Positions 11,303 through 56,874 of a stretch of 64,000 nucleotides of DNA are shown here, piece after piece. The stretch's first letter is position 1, and every line of letters begins with the position of its first letter. Both the position numbers and the translations under genes were made by a program. The notes beneath the pieces are model-generated. The model searched no databases. It saw only the letters and a list, made by a program, of their open reading frames with translations, and had not been told where the DNA came from. The stretch comes from Malania oleifera. Lineage: Eukaryota > Streptophyta > Magnoliopsida > Santalales > Ximeniaceae. The DNA lies in the NCBI RefSeq assembly GCF_029873635.1, contig NC_080417.1:26298182-26362181 (forward strand). Direction: 5' to 3'.

Positions 11303-11304
11303 AG

Positions 11305-11880: not shown

Positions 11881-11885
11881 TTTAG

Positions 11886-13228
11886 ACTGCTCACTTCTAA
11901 CAATCTTTGGTCATGTTTTTTTAGAGTTAAATATTATAGAAATGATCATTTATTAATAAGGAAGGGGATGCCAAATGACTCTTGGTTCTGAAAATCAATG
12001 ATGACCACCATTCTGAAAGTTATGGATAATGTTAAAATTTGAGTGAGAGGTGGGAACTCTTTTTTTTGGTTCGATAGCTGGCTTACATCAGGCCCGTTAG
12101 CTGTGCACACTGAGGATATTTTGAACAAGAAGTTGTGTATTAAGGATTGCTGGTTGAATAACAAATGGAACTCTGATTTATTAATGGAATTGGTTAGGGC
12201 CGATAGAATAATGGAAATCTTGCATAATATGCCAATTGGTAAAAGTGGTCAAGATATATTCATCTTGAAGTCTGCCCCTGACGACAATTTTTCTACAAAA
12301 ATGGCATGGGAGGCAGTGCGGAGCAGAAGTGATAATTTTAAGTGGAATGACTGGTTTTGGCATTCTCTATTGCCTAGAAGAATCTCAATGTGTTTATAGA
12401 AGACCTGGTTTAGATGCTTGGCAGTAGATGATAGAATTCGGGCCAAAGGGATATCGATGGTTTCATCTTGTGATTGTTGCGTGAAGAGAAGTCAGGAAAA
12501 CACTAATCACATTCTTTCTTTAGGCGAGGTGGCTTCAAAGGTTTAGCGTCAAGCTAGTGTGGTGTTGGGGATTCCTTTCCAACGGTTCATTCCCTGGAAA
12601 AATTGAATTGCAAACTGGTTCCACTATGCTCGAAAATCATCTATTAAAGGTATTTTAATCGGTCTGATTCCGTGGTGTCTCTAAAATAGAAGATGCAAAG
12701 CGAGAATGGAAGGAGTTTATCAAAGTGTGGATCAGATGTGGAGAAGTGTTTGATACTAGGTTAGTTTTTTAGCTGAAAGCTCTAATTCTTTTTCAAAAAT
12801 TGAAAATATCGGACATTACGATTTTGAAAAGAGTTTCAAATTCAGCATCAGGGAGTTTGCGCCAAGCTTGGAAAAATTATTTTATGGGTTAAACCCCCAA
12901 CAGGGTGGATAAAACTTAATTGTGATGGGAGCTGTAAGGGCAATTCAGATACTTCAAGAGGTGGAGGAACTATTTGAGATTGCCATGACATAGTGACTCA
13001 CAAATTGTTGTTAATTGGTTTCGGAAAGGTAGATGTACCTTGTGGTATCTTTGGGATTTTTGGGAGGATCTCGTGGATGAATTAGAAGGTGTAAACTTCA
13101 TGGTGATCCATCAATATAAGAAAAACAATAGTGCGGCTGATTTTTTTGTTAGAGAAGGAGAAATGAAAAACATTGTCATCTACGAAGAAAAACATCTTTT
13201 ACCATGTTTTCTAAAAGTTATCCTTTAA
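11886..13228 (+). pseudogene. LINE ORF2 C-terminal region (zf-RVT and RNase H-like)
   Basis: Downstream of the solo LTR the LINE continues with a WFRVKYY-like segment, then a zf-RVT-type region containing FFWFDSWL (about 12061-12084) and WHSLLPRRISMCLW (about 12358-12400). The RNase H-like end begins WIKLNCDGSCKGN at about 12907 and shows an NNSAADFFVREG block at 13123-13158, matching the usual N-x-x-AD-x-LA pattern. Several stops interrupt the frames, so no product is expected. In plant L1 elements the RNase H-like domain is a late addition to ORF2. Confidence 0.8.
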
Positions 13229-14779: not shown

Positions 14780-15387
14780 GGTTTTCACTGGGCTCGCAGA
14801 CCACTCTGCTGGTGGTGTTGTTGGTGGTAAGTGCTTGTTCTTTTCGTGGGGGAATATATTTGGAGTTCGCTGTTTTTTACAAGCAGTCTTCATGCTTCTT
14901 TGGTATCTGTGTAGCTATAATAAATTCTGCGGGGATTTGTCTGTGACTCGATCTGGAGAGGCCGAGAAATGGATTATTCACGGATTTGAGTGCCCGTTTA
15001 AGATATAGCTTCTCTTCCATGGTAGAATAAGATTTTTAAAGAAGTTATTGTTTTTTTCCCTTTGAAACTGCGTTTTCCCCATCTTTCTGCAAATTTTGAG
15101 TTGCATTTTAGGCAGCTGTTTCTGAAGCAATGACTTCTATTTATATTTCTTATAATACGCAATTCTTGCATTTTAGAAAATAATTTGACTCTAGAGTTTC
15201 CCTGGTTTCAATTTTGTATATACTCACATGTTTAAAGTGTTTTCTGAACAACCGAGAGTTTAACTTGTAATTTGTTGTTTTAATGGGTGTCTGATCGTCT
15301 GAGTACTTATTGTCGCCCTTCGAGTTTGAGAGTTCCCATCGTAAATTCCACATCTTTACCGGAATATGCTATAAAATATTGTTCAAT
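14780..15387 (+). promoter_or_regulatory. Probable 5' leader of the BTB gene, with a possible leader intron
   Basis: The sequence just before the start codon shows features of a spliced leader. A good donor, GTGGTAAGTGC, lies near 14826. A T-rich stretch ending TTGCATTTTAG (acceptor at 15110-15111) could close a leader intron of about 285 bp. The transcript start is not visible. Leader introns are common in plant genes, but this one is inferred only from splice-site shape. Confidence 0.35.
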
Positions 15388-18300: not shown

Positions 18301-20036
18301 TTCCAAAGTTGAGCTTAGCAGTCTAAAATATCTCTTCTTACCATCGCAACTGTATCCCTTTGGGGCTTTGATTTTTGTTTTTGCAGAACCATAAAGTTGT
18401 CTTTGTTGTCTTGCCACTTATTCCAACATCTTTGTCATATATATGCTCCTTTCTTATGAAGATATTGTTTCTTGATGGTCTAATATCTTGTATCATAGAG
18501 CACAACTGGTATTATTTTCTTATCGATTAAGTCATATAACATACATGAATGTGTGTGTATTATATATATATTTTATATTCTTGATAGAGAAATCAGGACA
18601 AAATATTATGATCATCAGGTGACTGTCTACCAAGTTGTCTTAGTTGTCTTCGCTGTCTTGCTACTTATCCCAACATCTTGCATCATATATGCTCATTTTT
18701 TATGAAGATATGACCATCCGTTCGAACTTTATGGTAATGAAAACAGACCATCTATTACACAGATCGACACAAAAATGGAAACAAGAAAACCAACAGTTCT
18801 CCAATGCACCATTTGGATTCTGAAGTTGTCTTGCCTGTTTAGGTATTAAGAGTGTTGCCGTGGGGTGAGGGAGATCCAGGCTACCAATCTTACCCATCAA
18901 AAAAGAAAAGGATTCCTGATCTATTACTAAAATTGTTTCGGGTTCTCTGCCACACCCAAAGTTTTGTATTGTTCTTGCATTTTCTTGTAGATTCAACTAT
19001 GATGTGTGTGAAAAGATTTATGGATTTTCTCTTCATATGTCACATAATCACTTGAACCAAACTGTTTCTGTAGGTTGCAGAACAGCTTGGGTTCAACTCG
19101 TGCATGCAGTCATGTTTGGAATACCTGGAAGCAGTCCCTTGGGTTGGGGAAGAAGAAGAAAAGGTGGTTTCATCGGTACTGCGTCTCCAGAGTGAGGGTA
19201 TTGGAGTCACCCCTGTATTGAAACGAGTCTCTTCTGATGTCTCCAACCCTCCTAAAGACACACTTGTCCAAATAATTGAACTGGTTCTTAAGAGCAATGA
19301 GGAGAGAGGCCGACGAGAAATGAAATCTGTCGTATTGAAGCTACTTAGGGAGAATAAATGTGTCCCAAACTGTGCTGGCTCAACTGACATCTGCAATGAA
19401 ACTATTTACAATTCGTGCAAAACCTGCTTGCTGTCACTGCTGTCTTTATTCAGGCAAGCTGCAGAACCAGATTTCTCTGGAAAACCCATGGTCAGCAGAG
19501 AACCTGTGGTGAAGCAATTAGCCCTTGAGGCTGATAACCTCTCGTGGTTGCTTGAAATTTTAGCCGACAGACAAGCAGCAGATGAGTTTTCACTAATGTG
19601 GGCTAGCCAGCAAGAGTTGGCATTCCTACACCCAAAGCTGCCTGTTGTGTCACGTCACCATGTTAGTTGCATTACAGCAAGGCTCTTTGTTGGTATTGGA
19701 AGAGGGGAGGTGCTGCCTTCGAAGGACACCCGTCAATTATTGCTGCAGACCTGGTTACAGCCGTTGATCAATGACTACAGCTGGTTGCAGCATGGGTGTA
19801 GGTCATTTGATCGCAAGGTTGTGGAGGAAGGAATAGGTAGGACAATCCTGACACTGCCTCTAGAGGATCAGCAGAGCATTTTACTAGCTTGGTTGGGCAG
19901 TTTTTTGAAGGCCGGTGATAATTGCCCAAATCTTCAGAGAGCCTTTGAGGTCTGGTGGCGGAGGACTTTCATTAGACCTTTTACAGAATCCCAAGGACAT
20001 CTGGTCCAGTCGGATGGCTCAACGACATCAAGGTAG
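15388..20036 (+). CDS. BTB/POZ domain protein, At3g50780-like (2 exons)
   Basis: Two exons join to a 532-residue protein: 15388-16023 (212 codons) and 19074-20036 (320 codons plus stop). The 3050-bp intron has a GTAATT donor and a TTTCTGTAG acceptor and is phase 0. The start is the first in-frame ATG and opens MAEIRLTRVEQGQTKIKNVP, the conserved N-terminus I recall for the At3g50780 subfamily, followed by a GFWCCPSP motif (about residues 31-38). A Ser/Pro/Lys-rich linker (about 45-110) leads to the BTB/POZ fold (about 117-225), with KVAIEFGELG, SVHRNVL and the helical RILKVAEQLGF straddling the splice junction. The rest is helical, BACK-like, ending about 20 residues after a WWRRTF motif. BTB proteins often act as substrate adaptors of CUL3 ubiquitin ligases; the partner of this subfamily is unknown to me. 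The gene looks intact and its length is close to the Arabidopsis relative (about 520 residues). The intron carries repeats annotated separately. Confidence 0.9.
16430..17057. mobile_element. hAT-like MITE in the BTB-gene intron
   Basis: A 628-bp block with inverted ends: CAATGTTTTAAAAGGC at 16430-16445 and GCCTTTTAAAACATTG at 17042-17057, an exact 16-bp terminal inverted repeat. It is flanked by an 8-bp duplication with one transition, GAATTTAC (16422-16429) and GAGTTTAC (17058-17065). An 8-bp TSD and a CA...TG end fit the hAT superfamily. Subterminal regions are enriched in AGGCTTACG and GAGGCATGCC phrases on both sides in opposite orientation. There is no coding sequence, so it is non-autonomous. 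Confidence 0.85.
17372..17911. repeat. Tandem duplication of about 271 bp in the intron
   Basis: Sequence starting AGGCAGCTGAAGTGTCTTAT at 17372 repeats from 17643 to about 17911 with few differences, including the GACTGTTGATGGA and GAGAGACATGGCAG phrases. High similarity suggests a recent event. No coding potential. Confidence 0.9.
18395..18712. repeat. Pair of diverged about 75-bp direct repeats in the intron
   Basis: A phrase group (TTGTCTT...TTGTCTTGC, ACTTATYCCAACATCTT, ATATATGCTC, TTATGAAGATAT) occurs at about 18395-18465 and again at about 18633-18712. Similarity is clearly lower than in the 271-bp duplication. Confidence 0.75.
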
Positions 20037-22105
20037 TAGGCCAACAGAAACACAATGGGTGATGGAAGTAATGACAATATATGCAGTAGAGATTATATTG
20101 CACAGTATAAAGAGTTACATGGAGAGACTTAAAGAATAGGAAGGAAAACATCAAAATAGTTCTTTCCCAGCGAGAACTAAGATGATAAATCTAGTTGAAG
20201 TGTAATAGTAACAGGATTTGGGTTGATTGTTTCACTTGAAATTTCGAGAGAGAAATGTAGTGTGGGGTATTAAAGCTTGCTTTTGCATTGATACATGTTT
20301 GATGATTGCCTGATGTAAAAATTCAAGAGCAGAAGTATCGTGGTATTGTGCTTTGTGTGAACTAAATTAAATGCTTAGAAATGCATTTTTCAATGGAGTT
20401 TGACAATGCATATATGAATTCTTACTGCTTATGCATATGAAGTTTCAGTTATCTTTTTTTCCTTTTATGCTAGCATATTGAAGGCTGTATGAGGTATGTT
20501 TGCGCACTGTGGTTTGTGGTTACCCACAAAACTGGTTTCTCATAGCCGAGCAAAACATTACCCCTGCCTGTCAAGTAGTTTTCTCAGTGTCTTCATTGTG
20601 CATGAACAATTACGCAATTAGTTTTTGTCTAATTTCTGACTAGTATATTCATTTCTCATTCTATCTACTCGATCCTTTAACTTAGATGTGAAAAGTTCAA
20701 ATCATGGAAACAACTTCTTCAAATTCCCCAAAGTAAGGCTGTATACTACCGTATCCTAGCCCTTCATATGGTGTTGGAGTGTTGTGCACTTGGTCTTGTT
20801 TCTTTCATTTTGTGGCTGGAGTCCAGTGGAGGGCAGAAAAACATGAGGCTGAAAGCCCTAGTTTGTGCTGTGTTCCAAGTGGTGTTAGATCTCCTAATTG
20901 GTTTTAGCTGTGACAAATGAATTGGGATTGTGGCCTCTAAGAAAAGTCCTTGATGTTGTTCCTATTCTAGAAACCAGGCAAATCCTGTTGGTTTAACTAC
21001 CGTCGATTAGTTCAACAACAAGATGAATGCGGTAATAACAACAACAAACCAAATTTTAGTCTCACTAGATGGGATTGACTGGATGAATCTTTTCTCGTCA
21101 ATTTATGTCATCATGGACAATTTCCTTGGACAAATTTAGGACAATTGAATCTTTACTGTCTCATTTTAAGTCATTTTTAGATCTATCCCTCCCTTTTCTA
21201 CCCCTCACAATAACTAAGTCACTTTTCATCGGTGACGCATTATGTGGCCTAAAGAACTAGATAAAATTATTCAGAAAGTCTTATAATTAGGGTCTAGAGC
21301 AGCATGCCTAAAAAAGATGGTTAGGCTAGGTCACAAATGGGCAGCTAGTCTTGAAACTTGATATAGTTTTAGCATGTTAAAACCTCCAAAATTTTGAATG
21401 AACATAGGAAATGGTCAAATAGGCCATGCCTTGCAAACCCAAATAGTTGGATAAGGCTCACTGAGTTTAAAGCTAGATTCATTCGTGCAATGCCAAAGTA
21501 GGCACCTAGGACCTTGATTCTTGGTCTCATGGTCCATGTCAGGGTTTTGATTTTGAGCCTAGAGCTGCGGGCGCATGCACGGTGAGTGCCAGCCCTTTTA
21601 TCACAAGAATACAGAGGTTAAAATTGGTTGATGTTGTTGATCTGATGTCATTTTTAAGTCCTCGCTGATGTCCTTTTGGAAAGTTGTTAGCTACTGAAGT
21701 TATACAGATTATTGACCTTATGAAGTCCAATGATGTTGTCCACTGGGTGTTCAGAACCCCCAGAGATGCTTATTTGTTACATGGTGAAAATTTGAAATAA
21801 AAAACCTACAAACTCCTCCTAGGTGAACAAATTAATGGACTTGATCCTCTATGTCGACGACTGTTGCAAAACAAGGTAATTGCGTGGCATGCAAGATCTT
21901 TCTTCTCCAATCTTGTTTTGTTTCTTCCATTTTTTATAGTTACCCAATGTCACAAGGTTGGAGTTTATTTCTAACTTATGATGTATCAGGGCTTCAGATT
22001 GATATTCTTTATTAAATATCACACCAATGTTTTACCTTTTTTTTAAATGGGATATTCATGTTTTATAGCAATCTTTATATTGTGATTCTTTATTATCACA
22101 TTGAT
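20037..22105. other. 3' flank of the BTB gene and intergenic DNA
   Basis: The first few hundred bases after the stop should be 3' UTR, but I see no canonical AATAAA and so cannot place the end. From about 20500 the sequence has mixed composition without a long open frame. A SINE-like fragment lies at 21020-21240. Apart from that I see nothing recognisable. Confidence 0.5.
21020..21240 (+). repeat. Degenerate SINE/LINE-tail-like fragment
   Basis: AACAACAACAAACC followed by TAGTCTCACTAGATGGGATTG and a GGATGAATC phrase resembles a widespread plant interspersed repeat whose core reads like CCACTAGGTGGGGTCGGCTA. The match is weak and the ends are not defined. Confidence 0.35.
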
Positions 22106-23267
22106 TGTTAGCTTTTCTACATTTCATCCCATTTTGATAATAACAAACCAAAGCATCTAATTGTGCTACTAAGTATGTATATAGGTATTAAAGTATCAAG
22201 CACAATAATAGATGCAAATTGGAAAGCCATGAAGCTTACAAGGCGATGTTATTTGGCTATGAACATGGAGCTTATAAAGACCAATCTTTGAAGACTATGA
22301 CTATGATCATGGAGCTCATGAAGTCCAAACTTGAAGAATTAAAAGAATTTATTTCATGTATATTACATATAGGACCTATGTAAGTACACTAACATTGATT
22401 ATGTGAAAAAGCTCATAGGTGACTTTAGTTAGACCCTAGGCATTCTATATTTCATTGAAAATTATTTTATAAATGTGCAAATTTTATTTCAAAGTATTAA
22501 AATCATTTTTGGAATGAAAAACTCCAAAACAAGATTCTCCAAATCTCCTTCTTTTTTCTGCATCCGTCTTGATATGCAATTTCTCTATCTATATCTTCTT
22601 ATCTTCAAAAATTTTCAACACAAAAGTTGTGGGATGTTTTCTTAGCTTTTTGTTGATACCTAGATCGTTCTTTTTGGAATTCTCTAGAAAAAGTTATGTT
22701 CCAAATACTGAAGGGTGTTTTAGGAAAATCTCGGCTAAAATTTTCAAAAAACTCGGGTGACCGAACCAGGCCATTCGGGCGACCAAGTCCCAATTCGGTT
22801 GATTGAATCCTGCGGCTGAAAGCCACAATGGCAAGAAAACGGCTAGTTTTCAAATGATAAATTATTTTTAAAAATGCAACGATCATAAAATGGCTAGTAA
22901 ATCATCTTGCCTGTAAATATAAGGTTTTTAACTTGTCTTGGCCACAAGAGAAAAGAGGAATATACATCTATCATACACATCCAAGTTATTAGTCTTGATT
23001 GAAAATCCTTTTCAAACACTTTGCATTTCTAGTTTATTTTTCAAATGCACACTTACTCTCTTGCTAAAAAATCATTCTTGAAATTCATTGATTGAAGAGA
23101 GACCTTCTAGTTACTCATTGAGCTTCATTTCATAATCATATTGAGAGTGTATTAGTTTGCTATTTCTATTGTACTTATCTTGTGATATCCCGTGAAAGAA
23201 AGATTTAAAAAGAATTTGATGTTACTACCCATATCAATAAGGTGCACCTTTCTTTTTGGGAGCCTTC

Positions 23268-23342
23268 CCATAAGAATTCCATGGTTAAGCATGTTTGGCT
23301 TGAAGTAATCTTGGGATGAGTGACTTTCTAGAAAGTTTTCTC
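23268..23342 (+). promoter_or_regulatory. 5S-rRNA-derived block in Cassandra LTR 1
   Basis: Same block as in the second LTR, aligned at CCATAAGAATTCC, GGTTAAGCATG and TTGGGATGAGTGAC. It is more diverged from 5S than the other copy. Confidence 0.8.
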
Positions 23343-23439
23343 AAGAAGTGTGTGAGTGAGGACAAAACAAACTAAAAAAGACACGTGTTGGTCTGTGGGG
23401 TCAATCATTAGTTCGATAAGGCCCGCCCTTATTGTCTAG

Positions 23440-24788
23440 TGATGTAGGACGGGAATGGTCGACCTATGTCCTACGATTCAAACCTCACACAAGCATATAC
23501 ACTTTAAACACTTTAATTTAAAAATTTAATTATCCAAACATAAACACAATAAATCATGCTTTATTTCACATGTTCAAGGATTTTGAAAAGGTGTATGACT
23601 TGTCCAACAATTAAGTCCCAATTGGTTCTTTCACAAAGGAATCAAGTTATATGTTGAAAAGTTGTTATTTCAAATATTAAAGAAAAAGTTCTATGTTTGC
23701 AAACTAATATTCATACAATTGATTTTAACTAACAAGTACCAATATTGTAATCTATGGATCAAATAGGTTATTCAAAGATGTGATTTTAATCTACTAGCAA
23801 GGGTTCACAAAATATAGCAAAGGATTCAAACACAAGTACAGAAGTTACCAAGGGATTGATTTGGATGACTTGACGTTGTTCCACACGTAGTTAGGTCACA
23901 CTGTAGGTCCTTCGTACAAGCTTTGAATCACAAGATGAACGCAACAATGAAGTGTAGATGATAATCGTCGTGTGGTTGTATGAAGGTGCTAGCTGTGTGG
24001 TGTTAATGGGGGCCGTGAGAGTATTAGATGGAGTCGTTGGATAGTTTAGTGATCTCTCACCACTTGATCTCCGGAGAGAACGCCGTAGCCTCACACTACT
24101 CACTCACAAGGAGAGGGTCAAGCTTTACAAGCTTAAGCGAAGAAATGTTTCTTCTATATTCAACTTCAACTTCATGTCTTATTCTTACAATAAGAAGGCT
24201 ATTTATAGGCATAGTCTGGGAGACAAAGTATTAAACACTCAACAACTCTCAACAACTTTCAATAACAACTCTCAACAACTTTCAATAACTATTAACCTAA
24301 CACAATTAATACTTATTAAAAAACAAGGAACTCTAACTCATAAGCACACAAGTCAAGCTTAGTTGTCTTGCATTATTACAATTCAAATTTGAAATTTAAA
24401 CATATTCCAAAAGGAAGGCCAAAATCGTGTGCGGCCCATTGGAGCCATGTGGGGCTCAAAAGCTATGTGGGGCCCACATGGGTTTTGAGTTGGACTTTGC
24501 TTCAATACTTCACTTGGGTCTTCAAGCACCTAATAATCAAGAGATAACATATCCATGAAAAATATAAATTAACACAATAACAAAGTCTTCACATAAAAAA
24601 ATCTTCCATCAAAGAAGTAGAAGATCTTCAATTGATTCCATGTGTTTCTGCAAAACAGATATAAACAATAGTGGACATCTAGAGGTCATTCACGCGCCAC
24701 CATGTCAGCAAAGGGGTAGACATCGGGAGGTCGTCCATGTGTCATCATATCAGTAAAAGGGATACATAAAGCATGTTGATCCTCATCA
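23440..24788 (-). repeat. 3' LTR of element G
   Basis: The left-hand LTR (1349 bp) matches 27638-28257 plus 37719-38473 throughout, for example at the TGATGTAGGACGGG edge, the CTTGATCTCCGGAGAGAACG block and the CATGTTGATCCTCATCA edge. An ACAACTCTCAACAACTTTCA-rich short tandem region (about 24240-24290) differs in length between the two copies. Confidence 0.9.
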
Positions 24789-24934
24789 TCTCTCCCGGAC
24801 TCAAAAGAATTCTTCTCCTAAGAATTAGAGGTAAAATACTGGGTGTAACATTCCGGGTTAAGATGAAGGAGGACTTCCTTAAGATTCTAGCTCCTTTCGG
24901 GAAGTGGCTTATCTCTCCACTTGACCATGAACTT

Positions 24935-26322
24935 CTAGTATGATCTTGCCTGTGTGAACTTTAGCTTGTCATCCAAGATTACATCAAGATTCTTGGGCAT
25001 GGGTAAGGGTAGAGGCAAAGGCAATTTTGGGTTTTCAGGATCAAGAGGAGTGGGAAATGGAGTGGGGTCACCTGCAGGGGTGGAATTTGAAGGTTCTACA
25101 AAAGAATATGCTACAAGAAATGGGATTAGATTTTCAACATTAAAAACATTGCTTATGCTAGAATCAACAGGAATATTAAGCATGTAAGCATTAGAACCAG
25201 TTTTCTTTAAAATTTTGAAATGATCAATCTTATTAGCATGTAACTTCCGGACCTCTCCTACAGAAATCTGCTCAGGATGAATATGGACTATAACCATATC
25301 ACCCTTTGAAAATTCTTTCAACATGAAATGTATGTTAGCAATAGGTTTATAATGTTCATGATTCAAATTAACCTTCATTCTTATTTCAAAGGGTAGATTG
25401 TGTATATGTTTTGCAAAAGCATCAGTCGGCTCACTCACTCTAGACTTAAGTGGTAGTGGAATAAGAACTACAGGCTTTCTAAGACTTTATCCTATGATAA
25501 CTTGAAATGGTCTGAATATTGTAGTGCTATCCACTGAACTGCTGAATGCAAAATTGGCCACAGGAAGGCATAAATCCCAAGCTATGATGTTTTCAACTAC
25601 CTTACATATCAATAGGTCCCTAAGGCTTCTATTTACTAGTTCAACTTGACAATTAGTTTAGGGGAAGTAAGCACTAGAACATTTAAGTTTGGTGCCTAAC
25701 ATGGTCGCACTAGAACATTTAAGTTTGGTGCCTAACATGGTCCTCAAGGCTTTCAAGAAGTAACCTATGAGTTGTACATCTTTATTTGAAACAATGGTTT
25801 TGAGAAACCTATGCTCGGTGACAATCTTGTTGGTTGCTCTATCATTGATGCATGTGCTCAAAGTATTATTTTCCTTGGGATTAGGGAAAGTAGGGCAGCC
25901 AAGTGAACCTAAAATCTTATAAAACAAAGTCATGTTCCTTCAACTTGTTTCAGCTCCTCGTGTTCTATCAGATTCACTCTATGATGTGATAAATGAGGCA
26001 GAGATGAATAAGGAATAAGATCAATGATATGTTGATTGTCTCTCATGGGAGATGACTCACTAGGCGACTCAAAGATGACATCCTTAAACTTAGAAGGTGG
26101 GGATGATACTTCTACGGGTGTTTCCTGATGAGAAAGGGGTGTTTCAGTTTCCTTAGGAACATCCACCGATACTTCCTGTGCATCTTGACTTTCCTGATCA
26201 CACGACTTTTTACTTATGGGGTGGTTCAAGGATTCACCACTAATTTCTCTCTTTTCCTTCTCATTTTTCTCACCATCTTCCCTTTCAAGCACCAAGTCCA
26301 TAGGTGCTTTTACTTTGTCCAT
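24935..26322 (-). pseudogene. Element G pol remnants (RT start and integrase)
   Basis: On the minus strand, 25930-26322 is hydrophilic and ends with a DLIPYSSLPHLSHHR block that resembles the segment preceding RT in plant Gypsy polyproteins. 25658-25933 and 24935-25438 resemble the integrase core and its C-terminal part: GDMVIVHIHPEQ, VRKLHANKIDHFKILKK and a GSNAYMLNIP phrase typical of Gypsy integrase C-terminal regions. The middle of pol is not recognisable. The remnant is broken several times. Confidence 0.8.
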
Positions 26323-26658
26323 AGGTTGTTGGATTGGGGAATTGCTTTCTCAGGAGGTGACTAGACTTGATTACGCTAGTCAAAACTTTTCATAGCTCTA
26401 AATCTAGTAAGAGTACGACTCATTGGAAGAGGTATCAAACCGTTTTCCCATGGACTCTTTAGTCCTTTGCTTAAAGTTTTAAGCAAAACTATAGGCATGT
26501 TCAAGGGACTTCATGTGATATGGGAATAGTTTTCTCCTCAGTTCAGGCTTTAGTTCTAGACAAAATTGGGAGGTTTGTTGACTATTAGTCTCATAGACAC
26601 CACATCTTACAGTCAGCTTATCGAATTGATTCATATATTCTAGAACAGTCATGCTACC

Positions 26659-27210
26659 TTAACGCAAGTCGTAAAGCTGATCAATAAGGTGCTCTCTATA
26701 TCTAAGGGGTGCATACTTCTCCCTTAATCTATCCTTCATTAGATCCCAATGCTCAATGGTTCTATGGTTCAACCTCGCTTTTTGCCTCTTAACGTTTATC
26801 CAATGGAGTTTGGCTTGCCCGGTTAGTCCCATTTTTGCAAGCCTCACTTGGTGTGAGTCATGCATCCTACACCTCTCAAAATAGGCATCCATTCCAGTCA
26901 ACCAATCTTGGAAGACTTTAGGATCCTTTTTTCCATAAAAGGTGGGGGCTTCTATCCTCATTTCATCATTGTAAGGATCATGACGGTCCCTACGGCAAGG
27001 TCTTCTAATATGAAGGTCATCAACGTCATAGTCCTCATCATCAAAATGTTGGGCATAAGGCTCATGACGTTGGGGTATCCAAGCAATGTCATCTTTGCGA
27101 CTCACTCGCCTTTGTGGAGGGAGGTAAGGTCTTTCTCTAGGAGTCATAAGTGGCTCTCTCTCAATATAAATCCTACAACATCGGTAAGGATTCCCGACTT
27201 GAGTAGACAT
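26659..27210 (-). pseudogene. Element G gag remnant (retrotransposon gag domain)
   Basis: A 183-codon frame shows the Ty3/Gypsy gag signature: APTFYGKKDPKVFQDWL, AYFERCRM, HDSHQVRLAKMGLTGQAKLH and W-x-x-MKDRLREKYAP. An Arg/Asp-rich N-terminal part precedes it. Gag forms the capsid-like particle of such elements. The frame is truncated relative to intact family members. Confidence 0.85.
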
Positions 27211-28257
27211 CCTAGGGGTTGGGAAAGGATTCAGAGAGCACTAGGGCATCCCTTTGGAATGGTGTTTGGTTACACAAGGTAAGGTCAAGTGTAAACCTGA
27301 CATAAATAAGGTCCAAATACCCAAAATTTAGAGTATAGGTGGGTTGTTCTAGGCAAAACTGTCACCCATTTTTCTGGAAACCCGAGAGCTACTAAAGGAT
27401 TTTTCAGTTACGAACACCTTTTGGTATTTGGGGTTTAAATTTTGCTACAAAACTCCAAATAAGGCAATCTTAGTGTCAAAAGAAAGCTAAGAAAATTTTC
27501 CACAACTTTTGTGCTTAACATTTTTGAATATGGGAAGGGTTTGACAGTGAAAATTGCACATCAATTCTGCAGACGGAAAATGAAGATGTTGGGACTTAGA
27601 GGGTTCGCCTAATTCGAACTAGGCACTGATACCAAGATGATGTAGGACGGGGATGGTTGAATTATGTCCTACGATTCAACCCTCACACAAGCATATACAC
27701 TTAAACACTTTAATTTAAAAATTTAATTATCCAAACATAAACACAATAAATCATGCTTTATTTCACATGTTTAAGGATTTTGAAAAAGTGTATGACTTGT
27801 CCAACAATTAAGTCCCAACTGGTTCTTTTACAAAGGAATCAAGTTATATGCTGAAAAGTTGTTATTTCAAAGATTCAAGAAAAAAGCTCTATGTTAGCAA
27901 ACTAATATTCATACAATTGATTTTAATTAGCAAGTACCAATATTGCAATCTATGGATCAAATGGGTTATTCAAAGATGTGACTTTAATCTACTAGCGAGA
28001 GTTCACAAGATATAGCAAAAGATTCAAACACAAGTACTAAAGTTACCAAGGGATTGATTTGGATGACTTGACGTTGTTCCACACGTACTTAGGTCACACC
28101 GTAGGTCCTTCGTACAAGCTTTGAATTACAGGATGAACGCAACAATGAAGTGTAGATGATAATCGTCGTGTGGTTGTATGAAGCTGCTGGCTGTGTGGTG
28201 TTGATGGGGGCCATGAGAGTATTAGATGGAGGAGGGGTTGATAGAGTCGTTGGATAG

Positions 28258-28550
28258 TGTTGACCTTATAGGTCACGCTCGGTTTTGATAATGACAAATA
28301 CCTATTATATTTGATAGGTGTTTGAGGTTATGTGCATGTATACTATTGGCAAGACAAAATGATGGCACGAGGAGTAAAAGTTGAAGGTCTTAAAGACCTT
28401 ATTTATGATTGTATATAATTTCTATATTCATCGTGAGCCTGTAATAATAAATAGGACTTTGATTGTAATAACCATATGCATCATCCTGCTTGGTATGATA
28501 GGTAAGCTCAAAAAAAAATGACCTAGAAACGACCCTAAGACACTCACACA

Positions 28551-28605
<55 letters not shown>

Positions 28606-30214
28606 AATCATTTGAATAGGGTGATTGCATGCCTAAATAGGACCGAAATGCACTAAATATGCACATTCGGTCGATCGTATTCTCTAGTACAATTCCTCCT
28701 TGTCGACCGAACCGGGACCGAGTCAACAGTTTGACCATTGCCCGGTTGACCGAACTCTCCCAGTTCATTTTCACCCGGTCGACCGAACTCCTTAGGAGTC
28801 AACACTTTGACCATCTGGTCAAACGTGCTCAGATTGCATGCCAACGCCCTAGTCAACCGAGTTCCCACGTGTGAGAACTCAACGGTCTGGTCGACCAAAC
28901 TTGCACAGCTCGGTCAACCGAACCTGCCTTTGGTCGATCGGTGCTCTCGGGTTGCCACAATATTTTTACTATGGTTAAAGTTTTTAAATAGGGTTAATTA
29001 TGTTAAAATATTTTAAAACAATAATAATAATACCCTATATGTCCCCAATGACTATAATTCTTCCCACTTCTATATATAGTTCCTCATTTGCTAAGATTAA
29101 GCATGAATTAGGATTTGAGATTAGGAAAAATTCTCTAAAAATATTTTTGTCCAAAATCTCTATATTTTCATATCTCTTCAATCCTATTGCAAAAATCTAC
29201 CTTCTATACTCATCCAAGTTATTTATTTTGAAAGAAGGTAGTATTCTTTATACTTTTTACTTAGGCTAAACTCTCCCTAGTTTTCATTTGATTGTGTATT
29301 GATTTTTGAAGAGTTGCTTAAGGTTTTTCCCATACTATTTCATTCATAAATATTTGATTGGGAAAAACCCTTGTGTTGCTAAGATCTTACATCCTCATTG
29401 CAAGTATCATAAGCTTGATTTATGCTTTGACGATAACATCTTTAGCAAGCTTATAAACCCTATTATCTACTGTACTCAAAATTAAGAAATATTTTTGTGA
29501 TATCTATTTAGGATTGTAGAGACTATTTGATTGTTCCCACAAGAAGCATATTAGCTTGATATCAAAAGTCTCATTCTCACACACATACATTGATATACAT
29601 TTGGTTGAGAGTTAACACTTGAGTTAACAAAACCTCACTTGAGCTTAATATCCTATCATATGTGAGTGCATTATTTGATTGAGCATATCGGTGCAAATTT
29701 GCTTAGTGTAAGAAGCACTTTATTTGTACGAAAGTTTTTATATTCGTTATATTCCAGGAACGAGCCTGAAGAGGGAGACTAGCCCTATTGAATAGTCCCG
29801 GACTAGCTTAGACCTAGTTAGGAAAGTTAGGTGTGCCATTTTAGTAAGGCGTGTTGGTTGAGGTCAACCCCGCTAATTGACCTAATTGTAACCGGTGCCA
29901 CTCCACCCATTAAGCGAGCATTAGTGGAATTTTCGGGCTTGCGAGTCAAAGGCGGGGATGTAGGCATAGTTGGCCGAACCCTGATAACATATTGTGTGTG
30001 AATTTTATTTTTCCGTAATTTATTTATCGCACATGTATGTTATGTTGTGAATGTCGCGCATTACTTAATTTTTGAACGTTATATTTATTTGTGCATTTGG
30101 AACTGTATAGACAGACCCTAGGTTGCGAATATATTGTTGTTAAATTAGCTAAACTTAGGAATAAATTTTAATATTCCAATTCACCCCCCTCTTGGGAATA
30201 CACCAAAGCTAACA
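28258..30214 (+). repeat. 5' LTR of element C
   Basis: A 1957-bp LTR. It contains a long (TA)n run, an array of GGTCGACCGAAC-type palindromes (28665-28945) and an end region with CACCCCCCTCTTGGG (from about 30182). It pairs with 34141-37713 once D is set aside. Confidence 0.9.
28553..28602. repeat. (TA)n microsatellite in the 5' LTR of C
   Basis: About 24 TA units. The same site in the 3' LTR (about 34435-34447) is short and imperfect, so the run expanded after insertion. Confidence 0.95.
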
Positions 30215-30268
30215 ATTGGTATTAGAGTCTCGTGGCATTGACTTAAACGTTTTTGCTAAAAGATCGAG

Positions 30269-31407
30269 ATGACTCTCATTGGTGTATCCCCATTCGGAGA
30301 GGGACAATCACCTACCAGTCCTCTAGTGTTTTGCGGTGTTGATTACACCACCTGGAAAGTTAGAATGAGTGTATTTTTAAAATCTATGAGTTGGAGGGCC
30401 TGTCAGGTGATTGTCAAAAGAATTTGTATGCCAGTAGAAAATGATATAAATTTGATGCATGCAAATTCATATGCCATGGACATGTTATATCTTGTTATTC
30501 TAATATTATCGTTGAGTTTGTGGCATGTCATAGTGCACAGGAAATTTGGGATGGACTCGAAATGAAATATGGAGAATCCCAGGAAAAGGAGACCATCACT
30601 CCAGAGGTGTCATGTTCCAATGATCTGGGAGTGGTAAATGATAGGATAATTGCATTAACAGAAAGTGAAGTATATAATCCTATCTCAGCTTCTGTAGATG
30701 ATTTTGTTGCTGAGTGCTATGTTTTGTCAAATACTGAATCATCTGTTGAATTTCATAATAATTTTGTTAATGATGCATGTGATGATTCTCGTGGAAAACA
30801 TTGCAATATATTGTATGTTAAATCATCTGTCAAACTTTGTGATAACACTGCAAATGATTCATGCGATGTTTATTGTGATATAACTTATGATAAATCATAC
30901 ATTGTTTCTGTTGATGTTGCTATGAATGCATGCAATGATTAATGTGATACTTATGGTGATAAACCTTACAATGTTGAATCATGTGCATCTAGTTTTGGAA
31001 GCATGACATCTTATGAGAAATCGCATAAGGAATTCATTAGTGCTCATAAGTTTATTGTTAGGATACATAAAAAGAAAATATTTTTGAAAAATGAAAATAG
31101 AAGGTTGGCTATACAATTAGAGAAATTAATAGATTATCACGCCACCTTAGAGGAGAAAAAGATGAAGAAAATATTGAAAATAGTATGCCATGAGGGAGAA
31201 ATGGGAGATAATAAACCCTCAGGACTTAAAAAGGAAAATATGTTCAAAAAGGGTTCAAAATCATTTAATAAATCTCATACAAATTTTCATGCCTCATCTT
31301 GCAAACACAAGATTAGTAAGCATGACTCTTCACAAAAATTTAAAACTTGCTTTTGTCATAATATTAAATGGCACACTCTATCCACTTGTCCATCTAGAAG
31401 TGTCTGA
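30269..31407 (+). pseudogene. Element C gag remnant (copia type)
   Basis: Starts shortly after the primer site with a YTTWKVRMSVFLKSM block, which matches the copia gag opening (FDG-x-NY-x-x-W-x-x-RM). An AQEIWDGLEMKYG segment follows near 30525-30560, as in that family. A Cys/Asp-rich part and a Lys-rich part follow, ending with a zinc-knuckle-like C-x-C-H...H-T-L-S-T-C segment (about 31350-31390). The frame is broken. Confidence 0.75.
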
Positions 31408-34140
31408 GGCCTAGACAAAGAAATGATATGGGTGATCATGAAAGCAAACTTCATAGGTCCTAAGGAAAAATTGATTTCAATTAATATTACTTAATTATTT
31501 AATGCTTCCTTAGATCTTAGGGTTAGGTTTAAGGGTTGTGATGACTATAGGATCAGGAAGAGGTACGTGCTTAAAATTCCAAATCTTAGTATATGCATTC
31601 AATATACACTATATCGAATACTAAGAATCTTAAATAATTAAGCCAAAAATATGAAAACGTCGGCTATAGCATACTTGATGAAATCCACTTCCAAATGGAC
31701 ATGACTTTCTTGCTTGGTAAATAATTCTAGATGCTTAACTCATGCTTAAAGATAAAACATTTTAAGTTAAGCAACTGTGTCCATTGCACAGAGATGAACT
31801 TTAGGGGTCCATCATATTCTATATTTCTTTAACCCTAATCTCATTAATCAAAATTGAGTAATCACTCTAGGTATAAGCACCAGTAATCATAAATTCCATA
31901 TCTACTAGTGCTAATTAAAAGTCATTCCTCTCATAACCAAATTAGGGGCATCCACTAAGGGAATCAAGTCTTCATCTAGATATCATAAAATTTTTCCCTT
32001 TGAGTTTAAAATCACAAATCCTCTAATTTTGGCTTATTCCATTCACAAGAAATTCTTATCACTTCATGATCATATCTGGTAAAGTATTATCCATCCATGG
32101 GCTCGTATCCTTAACTTAACTGGTCAATTTTGCTTCAACGGATACCCTCCAGCCATGGTTGATTTGAAATTATCAAAGAGCATCATTCTTTAAATATTCA
32201 TACACTCCATACTGTTTTTTGCCAAACCTAGTTCGGACATATTGTTTGGCGTGTTCATCATGCATATCGTCCTACTTCCTCAAATACTCTCTTGAACATA
32301 ATAGAAATTTAATACTTAAGAGTATTTAATTTATACTAAGTATTTAATTTATACTTCTCACAAAGCTCTCAACTTTTAAATCAAATTCTTTAGAGCGCTA
32401 TATACCTTGAGTGTGTTGAATGGCTAAATTGGTTGCCTAGGTCCTTGTCTCGATAAATGCATATATATCAAAGTGACCTATGCACACGTAATTAATATCG
32501 AAAGTCATTCCAACTCGTCCCTCTCACATATTGAAGATCATAAGAAAAGAGGCAAACATTGGCTTATCACTTTAATAAATATTCATTGTGACTTTTTGGT
32601 CCGATAAGCCTAAAACATACATGCCAAGTCTAAATCCATTGAAAATCTTAGGAACCTTAGCTAAAATATTTGGAGAAGAAGAAGACATAAAATGAATAAG
32701 TGTATAACTCAGGGGGAGCATTTCTTTTCAAAATTTCATGATTCTTTTGAATGCTCTCATTATTATATTTCCATATGCCTTTATGAAAAGCAACACAACA
32801 CCAAACTCATAACTATCCACTGTTGTTCATTGTTCATATTATATCTTGATGGATAGTGATTTGTGATTATCTAGTATTGTGAACTGTTATTGAATATACT
32901 ATTTGATAATACTGGATTGCATGGAACGTCATTTGCAAGGCTGTTGTAGAAAATTATTTACTTGCATGCTTGTATGGAACACCAATTGCATGGCTGATGC
33001 AGTATGTTGTGTATTGCATGCTGGTAGTAAAAATAGATTCTCGCATGCTCAAACTGAATTATTTTGAATTGATTGCTTGAATCTATCAGGTCTTGGTGCA
33101 TAAAATTTGAGAAATGTCCTATTTACAGACGGCATGCTGTCGAAATTTCGGTGGACTTTTCCAACATAAAACCTTGTCTAATGATGATTATAATGAAATT
33201 AAAAGTTAAAATATTTTTGAAAGGATGAGTGAAAACTCAATGAAAATTAAACTTCATCCTCACGCAATCATCATGTATTTAAGTTGCATAGCTCCATCCA
33301 TAGAGAAAGACCATAAAGAACTCATATGCATCACGTTTTGACCTATTAAATATTGAGACTCTTCTAAGAACCCTAATCATTATTATATTTTATGTGTTTT
33401 GATATGGATAGTTCACAGTTATGTGCTTTATTTCATGCTTTAATGTCTATCTTCTGATGCATACGTGATCTATAGGGATGATTATATTGATTGAATGGTA
33501 AAACGAATAAATCTCAAATCCAGTATATTCATTTTAAAAGACTTAAAAGTTGATTGCTTACACTTCTTGGGAATATTTATCCATCTAGTCTAAGCAGTTT
33601 CTTTTATCTAAGCTTGGATTCAATTTGCTAGGGGTAGCTTTCAAATAAATTTTACAAGTCTAACAACTAATATGATTGATTGATATCTTGCATTGACTTA
33701 GACTTCAAAAAAATTTGGTTATTGTTTGTAATGCATATTTCTCATATCTACTGCATGATGATGATTGACTTTATGTTTTATTGCATAGATCATACTGGAA
33801 CCATTTGAGTAGTTGTGGATAAATTGTTAGGTCTTATAAACTCCAAACTGGTCATTTTTATACAGGATTTGTTTTGGAAAGTCCTATTTACAAACGACAC
33901 TCTGTTGAAATTTTTCAAAAGTTTTCCAAAACCTATTGTATATAAAAATATTTTTCATCCATTGCCTAGAATTGTATTTCTTTATGGCCCTTTTTGCTGT
34001 TGCCAAAAGAAGGAGATGAAGAAGGCAAAAAATTGGGTTGAAATTAGGTTGCACTTACTGCATATTGTTAAGGCTAGCCATCTATGGCTATACCCATATT
34101 TTTTGCATGATGTATTTGTCATCATAAAAAAGGGGGAAAA
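31408..34140 (+). other. Non-coding interior of element C
   Basis: AT-rich, without recognisable protease, integrase, RT or RNase H. A phrase block TCCTATTTACARACGRCA...GTYGAAATTT occurs at about 33118-33165 and again at about 33883-33930, so the interior has its own diverged direct repeat. The region ends with a purine tract at the 3' LTR. Confidence 0.7.
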
Positions 34141-34572
34141 TGTTGACCTTATAGGTCACGCCTGGTTTTGATAATGACAAATATCTGTTGTATTTGATGG
34201 GTGTTTGAGGTTATGTGTAGGTATACTATTGGCAGGACAAAATGATGACACAAGGAGTAAAAATTGAAGGCCTTGAAGACCTTATTTATGATTGTATTTA
34301 ATTTCTATATTCATTATGGGTCTGTAATAGTAAATAGGACTTTGATTGTAATAACCATATGCATCATTTTGCTTGGTATGATAGGTAAGCTCAAACAAAA
34401 ATGACCTAGAAACGACCCTAGGACACTCACATATGCATATATATGTATGGTCATTTGAATAGAGTGATTGCATGCTTAAACAGGACCGAAATGCACTAAA
34501 TATGTACATTCGGTCGACCGTACTCTCTAGTGCAATTCTTCCCGGTCGACCAAACCGAGACCGGGTTAACAA

Positions 34573-36105
34573 TGTTAGACCTAGTGGTTAAGGGTTTTTT
34601 GTTCTAGCCTTATTTTGATGACAACAACCCACTAGTAGTTCTTTAAGGTTACTAACAGTTTTTCTCTAGTCCAGCTTAGTTGCATAGAACAGCTCCAAGG
34701 CAAGCATAAAGAGTTAAGCAGTCTTAAACCAGTAAAGAGCAACATATGACATGGCCAGAACTTTGCCGCTCAAGCAAAGCGTTTATGGATCCTGCATAGC
34801 AAACACAAGCTCTGGGTTGTGTGTGTGAGTTAGAGAGAATGATACTGTAAACCTTTGTGTATGGTGCGACTCAGAAGTACAAGCAAGAGATGGGCAAATC
34901 ACATATAGATCACTAGAACACAGGCATAGTCTCACACATACATAACAAGTCAAGTAAAACTGCACAAGATGTCTAAAACCCTCAAACATATTTTATTAAA
35001 CCTAAGACATCTTAAAATAGACCAAAGATTATTTCTAAAATAAAGATAAGGACCTTTTTACTTCGACCCAAACTTGGTTGAAATAATTTTAGAAAAGTAA
35101 AAGGCCTCGTCGAAGAACGTAGGGGTTTTGTCGACGCGAACAACATATCACCTCGTCGACGTACACAGGGCACTCGTCGATGAGAATTTATCGAGAACAC
35201 CTTAAAAGTTCAGAGCACCTTCGTCAACGAATACAAGGGACTCAGCAACAAAGTTTGTTCAAGATTCGTTGACGTACACAGCGTACTGTTGATGAAAAGA
35301 AACCGAGACCTATCTAAATTTAGAACCACTGTCTCGTCGACGAACACAGGGCTTTGTCGACGAAATGACTATGGGGCTTGTCGACGAAGGTGTGACCTCG
35401 TCGACAAAAGTCAGGCTGCAGACGACATTTAATGCGCCAGAATGACTAGTTTTCAACTTGTCTCATATCGATAAATGCCTAACGGCTCTCCAGCGCTCAG
35501 CTCACCCATTTGGTCTTTAAAATAGATCCTATGCATTGATTTCAAGCAGTGAAGCTTATTGGTTGTTGAGAACATTCATTGTGCATTTATTCTAGGGTTT
35601 CATTGTGCATCCTCTTGCCCTCTTGCTCTGCTTTTGTTTACACTCCATTAACAAAGAGGAAATAATGTGAGGTTTTCATTGGGATACTCAGCTCAAGAGG
35701 AGCATCGCTCATTGTATCTACTTCTCTTCAAATTAATTGTATTGTAAGGCTAGTTGTGAGCCATTGTAAGGTGTCTCTAGGTGAGCACCATTGTAAGAGT
35801 TCTTTGTGAGCAGTTGCTTGTATAGGCTTCTCCGCTAGAAGGAGGATCACATAGTGGATTTGGGGAATCCTTGAGTTAGTCTCAAGGTGTGGACGTAGGC
35901 GCGGTGCCGAACCATGTTAACAACGTTGCGTTAAGCGATCTTCTCTTTTCTCTCTTGTGTTGCTCACCCATTGCTATTTTCTTTATTTATATATTGTGAT
36001 ATAATACTCTTGTTCTTGCCAAGAAATTTGTGTGATTGTAGAAAAACTTGCATATCCGCGAAAGACATCTATTCACCCCCCTCTAGATGCATATCCGGGC
36101 CAACA
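34573..36105 (+). mobile_element. Solo LTR D, innermost member of the nest
   Basis: A 1533-bp non-coding block starts TGTTAGACC and ends CACCCCCCTCTAG...GGGCCAACA. The sister LTR of C reads GTCAACAGTTTGACC at the same place, so the target was AACAG; the flanks read AACAA (34568-34572) and AATAG (36106-36110), each one transition away. There is no internal region or second LTR. The end style suggests a copia-type family different from C. Confidence 0.85.
35100..35415. repeat. Array of CGTCGACGAA-type palindromic units in LTR D
   Basis: About ten degenerate units with a TCGTCGACGAACACAGGG consensus occur at irregular spacing of 15-50 bp. GTCGAC is palindromic. The same 17-bp core is present once in the solo LTR at 11305-11880. 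Confidence 0.85.
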
Positions 36106-38734
36106 AATAGTTTGACCACTGCCTAATCGACCGAACATGCCCAGTTCATTTTCACTCGGTTGACTGAACTCCCTAGGAGTCAACACTTTGACCATCTAGT
36201 CGATCGTGCCTAGATTGCATGCCAACGCCCAGGTTAACCGAGTTCCCACGTATAAGAAATCAACGGTCTGGTCGACCGAACTAGTTAGTTCAAAAGGTTC
36301 CCGGTCGACCAAACTGCGGTAAATAGAAAAATCGCCCCAGAACCTCCATGTTCGGTTGACCAAACTTGTAGTTCAAATGATGCCTGGTCGACCAAACTTG
36401 CACAACTTGGTCAACCGAACCTGCCTTCGGTTGACTGGTGCTCTTGGGTTGCCACAATATTTTTGCCGTGGTTAAAGTTTTTAAATAGGGTTTATTGTGT
36501 TAAAATGTTTTAAAACAATAATAATAATACCCTATATGTCCCCAACGACTATAATTCTTCCCACTTCTATATATAGTCCCTCATTTGCTAAGATTAAGCA
36601 TGTATTAGGATTTAAGATTAGGAAAAATTCTCTGAAAATATTTTTATCCAAAATTTCTATATTTTCATATCTCTTCAATCATATAGCAAAAATCTACCAC
36701 CTATACTCATCCAAGTTATTTATTTTGAAAGAAGGTAGTATTCTTTATACTCTTTGGATAGGCTAAACTCTCCTTAGTTTTCGTTTGATTGTGTATTGAT
36801 TTTTGGAGAGTTGCTTAAGGTTTTTCCTATAATATTTCATTCATAAATATTTGATTGGGAAAAATCCTTGTGTGGCTTAAGATCTTGCATCCTCATTGCA
36901 AGTATCATAAGCTTGAATTGTGCTTTGATGATAACATCTCTAGCAAGCTTATAAACCCTGTTATCTACTGTACTCAAAATTTGAGAAATATTTTTATGAT
37001 TTCTATTTAGAGTTGTAGAGACTATTTGATTGTTCCCACAATAAGCATATTAGCTTGATATCAAAAGTCTCACCCTCACACACATACATTGATATACATT
37101 TGATTGAGAGTTAACACTTGAGTTACTAAAACCTCACTTGAGCTTAATATCCTATCATATGTGAGTGCATTATTTGATTGAGTATATCGTTGCAAATCTG
37201 CTTAGTCTAAAAAACACTTTATTTGTACGAAAATTTTTATATTCGCTGTATTCCAGGTACGGGCCTGAAGAGGGAGACTAGCCCTGTTGAATAGTTCCAG
37301 ACTAGCTTAGACCTGGTTAGGAAAGTTAGGTGCGCCATCCTAGTAAGGCGTGTTGGTTGAGGTCAGCCCCGCTAATTGATCTAATTGTAATTGGTGCCGT
37401 TCCACCCGTTAAGTAAGCATTAGTGGAATCCTCAGGCTTGCGAGCTAGAGGCGGGGACGTAGGCACAGTTGGCCGAACCCCAATAACATATCGTGTGTGC
37501 ATTTTATTTTTCCGTAATTCATTTATCGCACATGTATGTTATGTTGTGAATGTTGCGCATTACTTAATTTCTGAACATTATATTTATCTACGTATTTGGA
37601 ACTATATAGACAAACCCTAGGTTGTGAATATACTGCTGTTAAATTAGCTAAACTTAGGAATAAATTTTAATATTCCAATTCATCCCCCTCTTGGGAATAC
37701 ACCAAAGCTAATATATAGTTTAGTGGTCTCTTACTACTTGATCTCCGGAGAGAACGCCATAGCCTCACACTATTCACTCACAAGGAGAGGGACAAGCTTT
37801 ACAAGCTCAAGTAAAGAAATGTTTCTTCTATATTCAACTTCAACTTCATGTCTTGTTCTTACAATAAGAAGGCTATTTATAGGCACAGTCTAGGAGACAA
37901 AGCATTAAACACTCAACAACTCTCAACAACTTTCAACAACTATCAACAACTTTCAATAACTATTAACCTAACACGATTAATAGTTACTAAAAAACAAGGA
38001 ACTCCAACTCATAAGCACACAAGTCAAGCTTAGTTGTCTTGCATTATTACAATTCAAATTTGAAATTTAAACATATTCCAAAAGGAAGGCCAAAACCGTG
38101 TGGGGCCCATTGGAGCCATGTGGGGCTCAAAAGCCGTGTGGGGCCCACATGGGCTTTGAGTTGGACTTTACTTCAATACTTCACTTGGGTCTTCAAGCAT
38201 GGTCTTTAAGCACCTAATAATCAAGAGATAACATATCCACGAAAAATATAAATTAACACAATAACAAAGTCTTCACATAAAAAAAGTCTTCCATCAAAGA
38301 AGTAGAAGATCTTCAATTGATCCAATGTGTTTTTGCAAAATAGATATAAATAATAGTGGGCATCTAGAGGTCGTCCACGTGTCACCATGTCAGCAAAGGA
38401 GTGGACATCAGGAGGTTGTCCATGTGTCATCATATCAGTAAAAGGGATACATAAGGCATGTTGATCCTCATCATCTGCTCCAGGTGGAATAAGAGAGACG
38501 CAGTGCTCCCTAATAGACTCAGGTTGGGGTATTACAAAATGGTATCAAAACAATTACCCAGCCAGAAGTGTGATGAGATTCACATCGCCTAGGTTTGGAA
38601 ATGTGGGTTCACAATGAGGACGTAACGTTTTGTAAATGGGGGAGATTGTGATACCTCGTGGAAGAAAAAAATAAAAAGGATTTGATGTTACTACCCATAT
38701 CAATAGGGTTCACATTTCTTTTCGGGAGCCTTTT

Positions 38735-38806
38735 CATAAGAACTCCACGGTTAAGCGTACTTGGCTTGGAGTAATCTTGGGATGAGTGACCTTCTGGGAA
38801 GTTTTC
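38735..38806 (+). promoter_or_regulatory. 5S-rRNA-derived block (pol III control region) in Cassandra LTR 2
   Basis: CATAAGAACTCC, GGTTAAGCGTACTTGG, TTGGGATGAGTGACC and TTCTGGGAAGTT follow in the order and spacing of plant 5S rRNA (CATCAGAACTCC, AGTTAAGCGTGCTTGG, TAGGATGGGTGACC, TCCTGGGAAGTC). These cover the A-box, intermediate element and C-box of a 5S gene. In Cassandra elements this block is thought to drive RNA polymerase III transcription. It is not a ribosomal gene copy: the 5' part of 5S is absent and the flanks are LTR. Confidence 0.88.
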
Positions 38807-39029
38807 TCAGAAAGTATATGAGTGAGGATAAAACACACTGAAAACGATACGTGTTGGTCTGTGAGGCTAGTCATTAGTCCGATAAGGGCTGCTTCCCTGT
38901 TGTCTGGTCCAGGTGGAGGAGGAGAGACGCAGTGTTTCCTGGCAGACTCAGGTTGGGGCGTTACATATCCGCTTAAGTTTGGAGCATTCATTGTATAACA
39001 ATTTCTATTGATTTCGCTTTGTAAGAGCA

Positions 39030-39345
39030 TCTCCACCTATTAAAGGAGAGAGAAGACTCTGCCTAGTGAAGGAGAGAGGCGACTTCGCCTATTGAAGGAG
39101 AGAGGCAACTCTGCATAAGTAAAGGAGAGAGACATCTCCGCCTAGTGAAGAGAAAGGTAACTCCGCCTATTGAAGGAGAGAGACAACTCTGCCTAAGTAA
39201 AGGAGAGAGACAACTCTTCCTAAGTAAAGAAGAGAGACATCTCTGCCTAGTGAAGGAGAGAGGTAACTTCGCCTATTGAAGGAGAGATTGTAAAGGCTTC
39301 TCCGCCAACTAAAAGAAAGAGGTTTTCTCCACCTATTGAAGGAGT
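39030..39345. repeat. Minisatellite of about 28-bp units in LTR A
   Basis: About ten to eleven degenerate units of the form TCCGCCTAGTGAAGGAGAGA plus GRCAAC follow each other, with TATTGAAGG, TAGTGAAGG and TAAGTAAAGG variants alternating. Spacing is about 27-29 bp. Confidence 0.9.
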
Positions 39346-39615
39346 ACATAGTGGAATTCTCAAGTGGATTGCTTGAGGCAAAGACATAGGCAAGGATTGC
39401 CGAACCTTGTAAAAATACGAGTTTTATTCTCTCTTCCCTAATCTCTTTAAATTAAGCACACTTATATTTGTTTATATATTTGTTGCGATTGTTAATTGTA
39501 TTTGCTCATTTAGATCACGTTCTTAAGCTGTGGTTAAAATTGTTAGCATTAGCTTAAATTTTTAAAATATCCAATTCATCCTCCCTCTTGGGACTACACC
39601 TTTTCTAACATCGAT

Positions 39616-54590: not shown

Positions 54591-54664
<74 letters not shown>

Positions 54665-55350: not shown

Positions 55351-55381
<31 letters not shown>

Positions 55382-56069: not shown

Positions 56070-56116
<47 letters not shown>

Positions 56117-56839: not shown

Positions 56840-56874
<35 letters not shown>

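Follow-up and report, generated by a model that had tools for sequence, protein, structure and literature searches.

A legible five-level nest of LTR retrotransposons, and an LTR clock that contradicts the insertion order of one adjacent pair

Nested LTR retrotransposons are an ordinary feature of plant genomes. An excerpt of PMC2773423 calls nesting usual in maize, and tools for unpicking deep nests exist, according to an excerpt of PMC11020628. In the stacks described in PMC2773423 and PMC6911290, elements lie within elements with the oldest at the base, Ty3/gypsy and Ty1/copia types are mixed, and target duplications (TSDs) are mostly of 5 bp (87.2% in the excerpt of PMC6911290). The locus analyzed here resembles these stacks in each respect. 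Nothing in kind sets it apart; the difference is that its levels, and three empty sites, are easily read within 17.5 kb. The nest is a common plant-genome pattern in a very legible form and provides a tidy worked example. As the topology of a nest fixes the order of insertion, it also allows a check on the LTR clock, which proves wrong for one adjacent pair of this nest. Such conflicts have been reported before: 1042 of 4126 plant nested pairs (25%) are clock-inverted in the excerpt of PMC7251063, while a passage of PMC6911290 cautions that LTR ages are probably underestimated owing to gene conversion.

Within the 64-kb window, by which we mean the whole stretch of DNA analyzed, five LTR elements occupy positions 22106-39610. 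From outside to inside their order is A > B > G > C > D, and their parts are as follows.

22106..23180, + strand: A, left part of a solo LTR; TG start; TSD TTGAT at 22101-22105 (4/5)
23181..23439, + strand: B 5′ LTR, first part; TSD TATCT at 23176-23180; 5S-like stretch
23440..24788, - strand: G LTR of 1349 bp, downstream in G's sense; TSD TCTAG at 23435-23439; holds the empty site for C
24789..27637, - strand: G internal region, 2849 bp; purine tract at 24789-24796
24938-25486, - strand: C-terminal SH3 of the G integrase (Pfam SH3_Tf2-1)
26662-27240, - strand: G gag (Pfam Retrotrans_gag)
27622-27634, - strand: Met-type PBS of G; complement GGCACTGATACCA
27638..28257, - strand: upstream G LTR (in G's sense), left of C; 94.1% to 23440 ff.
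28258..30214, + strand: C 5′ LTR, 1957 bp; TSD GATAG at 28253-28257; holds the empty site for D
30215..34140, + strand: C internal region, 3926 bp; PBS at 30217-30227; purine tract at 34126-34140
30260-31404, + strand: putative gag-like frames of C; weak DUF4219 match (E 0.021, below cut-off)
34141..34572, + strand: C 3′ LTR, first part; repeat pair with the C 5′ LTR
34573..36105, + strand: D, solo LTR of 1533 bp; TG..CA; TSD AACAA at 34568-34572 and AATAG at 36106-36110
36106..37713, + strand: C 3′ LTR, second part; ends TA; TSD TATAG at 37714-37718
37714..38473, - strand: upstream G LTR (in G's sense), right of C; 92.5% to 24041 ff.; begins with TATAG, the right TSD of C
38474..38536, + strand: B 5′ LTR, last part; 83% to 38903-38965; begins with TCTGC, the right TSD of G
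38537..38646, + strand: B internal region, 110 bp; PBS TGGTATCAAA at 38540-38549; purine-rich tract at 38634-38646 (by eye)
38647..38965, + strand: B 3′ LTR; TSD TATCC at 38966-38970; holds the empty site for G (TCTGG); 5S-like stretch
38966..39610, + strand: A, right part of the solo LTR; CA end; tandem repeats; TSD TCGAT at 39611-39615; begins with the 5-base right TSD of B

A preliminary description had proposed a nest of five elements with these coordinates, and our analysis confirms it. All five left ends read TG and four of the five right ends read CA, the exception being C, whose 3′ LTR ends in TA and whose 5′ LTR ends in CA. The ten outer boundaries proposed earlier coincide with expected element ends, and a repeat finder recovered B/B′, G/G′ and C/C′ as in-register pairs, broken at the places previously assigned. 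The two pieces that the description had named as a possible point of failure, 23181-23439 and 38474-38536, are both colinear with 38647-38965 (82.45% over 319 sites, with one gap when the halves are aligned in order). The TSD pairs are also as it gave them at every level: TTGAT/TCGAT for A, TATCT/TATCC for B, TCTAG/TCTGC for G, GATAG/TATAG for C and AACAA/AATAG for D, agreeing at 4, 4, 3, 4 and 3 of 5 bases, respectively. Among 200,000 random pairs of the window's own 5-mers, agreement of at least 4/5 has P = 0.023 and of at least 3/5 has P = 0.13. Taken singly, the TSDs are imperfect, and each is only modest evidence.

The main evidence for the junctions is strong and comes from the empty sites in sister LTRs, which exist for G, C and D and for neither A nor B. 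The flanks of each insertion were joined minus k bases and aligned, with gaps allowed, to the sister LTR for k = 0 to 10. In all three cases k = 5 was best, with scores of 147, 164 and 152 for G, C and D and runners-up at 143, 160 and 150, as expected if the unoccupied target survives in the sister LTR of these three levels, which had been claimed. An ungapped scan (k = 0 to 12) also gave k = 5 for C (49/60) and D (45/60); for G it was best at k = 3 (42/60, versus 38/60 at k = 5). In the alignment, the sister B LTR has a 3-base gap just left of the G junction.

It is very probable that this locus is a plain plant LTR-retrotransposon nest, built by five successive integrase-mediated insertions with 5-bp staggered cuts. 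In this model A entered host DNA; the Cassandra element B then landed in the LTR of A, and the gypsy element G, on the minus strand, in the B 5′ LTR. One LTR of G in turn received the copia-like C, whose 3′ LTR was the target of D. The order, the junctions, the sister empty sites for G, C and D and the orientation of G are shown by the sequence itself, whereas the reduction of A and D to solo LTRs, presumably by LTR-LTR recombination, is inferred. This history is drawn from the ends and TSDs, the split LTRs colinear with their sisters and the k = 5 empty sites; from primer sites and purine tracts, located by eye, at the expected places and on the expected strands in B, G and C; and from the gag and SH3_Tf2-1 domains on the minus strand of G and the 5S-like stretch in both B LTRs. 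Against it stand the TSD agreement of 3-4/5, the preference of the ungapped G scan for k = 3 and the weak matches of the left half of A.

B is a Cassandra-type TRIM, with a 5S-like region, a Met-type PBS, a purine tract, no coding region and a small size. Its site TGGTATCAAA is one that we take to pair with tRNA-Met. The 5′ LTR measures 322 bp when both copies of the G TSD are counted, and the 3′ LTR 319 bp. With a plant 5S sequence as query, the local score was 66 in the 3′ LTR and 41 in the first part of the 5′ LTR, whereas none of 1000 shuffles of each exceeded 28. Cassandra elements range from 563 to 968 bp, with a minimum LTR/LTR identity of 74%, in the excerpt of PMC10853983. B, non-coding and about 750 bp long (LTRs of about 320 bp, internal region of 110 bp), with its Met-type PBS, 5S-like LTR and LTR/LTR identity of 82%, falls within these published figures. 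It differs from them in that its 5S part is decayed: the Rfam 5S model gives 12.6 bits in the 5′ LTR only (cut-off 38; E 6.1 over all 4227 families), the 3′ LTR is not listed at E ≤ 10, and neither B LTR appears as 5S in the wider scans (21 kb at E ≤ 1, and at gathering score).

G carries gag and a gypsy-type integrase domain, and is a Ty3/gypsy element. Its SH3_Tf2-1 match exceeds the cut-off of 30 (50.3 bits, E 2.6e-13), and its Retrotrans_gag match lies just under the curated cut-off of 24.1 (22.5 bits, E 1.4e-4). The PBS complement, gag and SH3_Tf2-1 all lie on the minus strand, which places G in the opposite orientation to the other elements. Five minus-strand frames of at least 40 aa lie between gag and the SH3 domain; no reverse transcriptase (RT) was found in the four scanned, all but the one of 44 aa, where Pfam at E ≤ 10 was blank, and a complete protease-RT-RNase H-integrase order was not found in G. 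From its sequence, G appears to be a deleted copy that has lost the RT region. The frame at 25490-25657, which may resemble integrase, had no match in Pfam (E ≤ 10) or among solved structures (E ≤ 1). With NCBIfam, the SH3 frame of G gave only unrelated matches, far under cut-off.

C is probably copia-like, with a gag reading that is weak and comes from the DUF4219 match listed above. No pol was found when all five frames of at least 75 aa touching its internal region were scanned with Pfam; three further matches, to unrelated families, had E values of 0.012-0.096, all below cut-off. G, apparently without its RT region, and C, in which no pol was detected, would therefore be dead or non-autonomous copies. 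D is a solo LTR, as judged by its TG..CA ends and TSD and strengthened by the sister empty site, and neither a primer site nor a purine tract was seen by eye in the 25-40 bases at its edges. A, C and D have in common a U5-like motif, TAGGC...GCCGAACC, near the 3′ end, and A and C also share their last bases. The motif is like that of SIRE/Maximus-type copia LTRs, a name that we assign presumptively from LTR motifs, as no pol was found. Taken together, the element labels of the preliminary description mostly hold, with Cassandra-type features in B and gag and SH3 in G; they omitted the minus strand of G, the lack of a detected RT in G and of a detectable pol in C. Elsewhere in the window, the stretch 63419-63996 is colinear with the start of the C LTR (70-75% in pieces), almost reaching the window end, and a copia RVT_2 frame lies at 62664-63083 (-), some 340 bp from it.

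A light inverted-repeat search for a sixth level gave four short pairs in the G internal region, 14 pairs in the C internal region, and none within the two parts of A or in D. Inspection by eye of the four G pairs and the longest five of the 14 C pairs revealed no transposon-like ends. Rfam had no match at gathering score in the whole window; at E ≤ 1 in 20001-41000, its sole matches were of microRNA models to an AT run and did not reach cut-off.

Since C sits inside one G LTR, C must be younger than G. The LTR divergence orders them the other way. LTR identity is 82.45% for B, 94.50% for G and 91.13% for C, and the corresponding K2P distances (bootstrap ranges) are 0.208 (0.152-0.273), 0.058 (0.045-0.071) and 0.096 (0.081-0.113). 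The LTRs of C differ at 170/1917 sites versus 74/1345 for G (Fisher p = 0.0003), and the excess persists when sites are stratified by cytosine context (p = 0.011, odds ratio 1.49). Absolute ages, calculated under two assumed rates, vary entirely with the rate chosen, and we make no claim from them. The "clean relative history" proposed earlier is therefore true of the nest topology and not of LTR divergence, by which C looks older than G. In this respect the pair is like the clock-inverted nested pairs in the excerpt of PMC7251063, the inner C being more diverged than the outer G by about 3.4 identity points (-3.4). It is unlike them in that no conversion tract was found in G. The inversion backs the published cautions on LTR dating; the principle is not new.

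What could have caused the inversion? At the context rates of G, 128 differences would be expected in C, where 170 were observed, and context composition thus accounts for part of the effect. We rejected a purely compositional cause, which covers only that part (stratified p = 0.011). G and C showed no difference in transition rate at CG (p = 1.0) or CHG sites (p = 0.68), and no significant one in transversions (12/1345 in G versus 26/1917 in C, p = 0.25), whereas the CHH transition rate was 0.136 in C versus 0.086 in G (p = 0.015). We think that a faster cytosine (CHH) transition rate in the LTRs of C would be responsible for most of the inversion, and favor this over conversion of G.

The other account keeps the nest order and supposes that the G LTRs were homogenized by gene conversion after C arrived, making G look too young. 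The higher identity of the G LTRs (94.5% versus 91.1% for C) fits it, and the excerpt of PMC7251063, where such inversions are seen in 1042/4126 nested pairs, proposes conversion to explain them. A conversion tract was nevertheless not found in the G LTR pair, where the longest identical run, of 91 bases, is not over-long (P = 0.31), and divergence is alike to the left and right of the 9.5-kb C insert (34/600 and 40/745). A whole-LTR event would need to bridge that insert, and an event preceding the arrival of C would leave the inversion unexplained. We consider conversion of G possible, though rather unlikely, and retain the faster CHH rate in C as our preferred cause.

A separate feature links the outermost element to G. 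About 150 bp are common, in the same sense, to the A LTR (22569-22719, +) and the G leader (27413-27564, -), at 74% over 152 bp (E 1.6e-21; score 110, against a maximum of 31 in 500 shuffles). A profile of both copies found no third copy above noise in the window, the next match having E 0.072, and a text search of the literature with a motif resembling the stretch returned no paper. It is conceivable, but we regard it as doubtful, that this piece passed from one retrotransposon superfamily to another and was retained, perhaps for a regulatory or packaging role, and is not a chance one-off capture.

A itself is one LTR with TG..CA ends and a TSD, and no primer site or purine tract was seen by eye in the 25-40 bases at its edges; it is a solo LTR, apparently of copia (SIRE-like) type. 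The right half aligns with the 3′ end of the C 5′ LTR up to and including the final base (score 71; highest of 200 shuffles, 27) and also with D (41; shuffle maximum, 24). The left half is less clear: its first 100 bases align with C and D no better than shuffles do, its last 231 bases are marginal against C (33, shuffle maximum 30) and not above shuffles against D (17 versus 23), and a short BLAST match to C covers A 868-921 (E 0.001). Because these matches are weak, the assignment of the left half comes mainly from its TG end and two TSDs. One could suppose that 22106-23180 and 38966-39610 derive from different elements, given the poor alignment of the left half and the absence of a second A copy from the window. 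We consider this very unlikely, as the outer ends are TG..CA with a 4/5 TSD, the 4/5 TSD of B lies at the inner ends of A, and the order of matches to the C LTR is preserved, at 1311-1420 for the end of the left half, albeit marginally, and at 1555-1957 for the right half. Flanking A, at approximately 22045-22064 and 39715-39735, is a common 20-base match with one mismatch (score 35, reached by 1 of 500 shuffles).

Finally, repeats are where assemblies generally fail, but a chimera of unrelated repeat pieces is highly improbable here, as TSDs on five levels and three empty sites at a 5-bp step are not expected from random joins. From the empty-site scans, chance or misassembly was judged an unlikely origin of the nest.

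The surroundings contain parts of two genes, from which the window appears to be plant DNA. Parts of a BTB/POZ gene lie at 15295-20033, some 2 kb upstream of A, with a BTB-POZ_ANK-like match (E 8.7e-62) and a BTB match that falls below cut-off. On the minus strand, 52631-59602 contains parts of a BEL1-type homeobox gene, with matches to POX (E 3.6e-14) and, under its cut-off, to Homeobox_KN (E 0.0022). A LINE-like remnant spans about 7325-13225, an extent guessed from its frames, with DUF4283 at 7325-7945 (E 1.1e-15) and a weak reverse-transcriptase match in the frame 10448-11023 (E 0.0015, far under the model cut-off). Two short repeats were also seen: 169-base copies at 17474-17911, present twice, 94% alike and with starts 269 apart, and a 93-base unit at 40112-40307, present twice at 103-base spacing and 87% alike.
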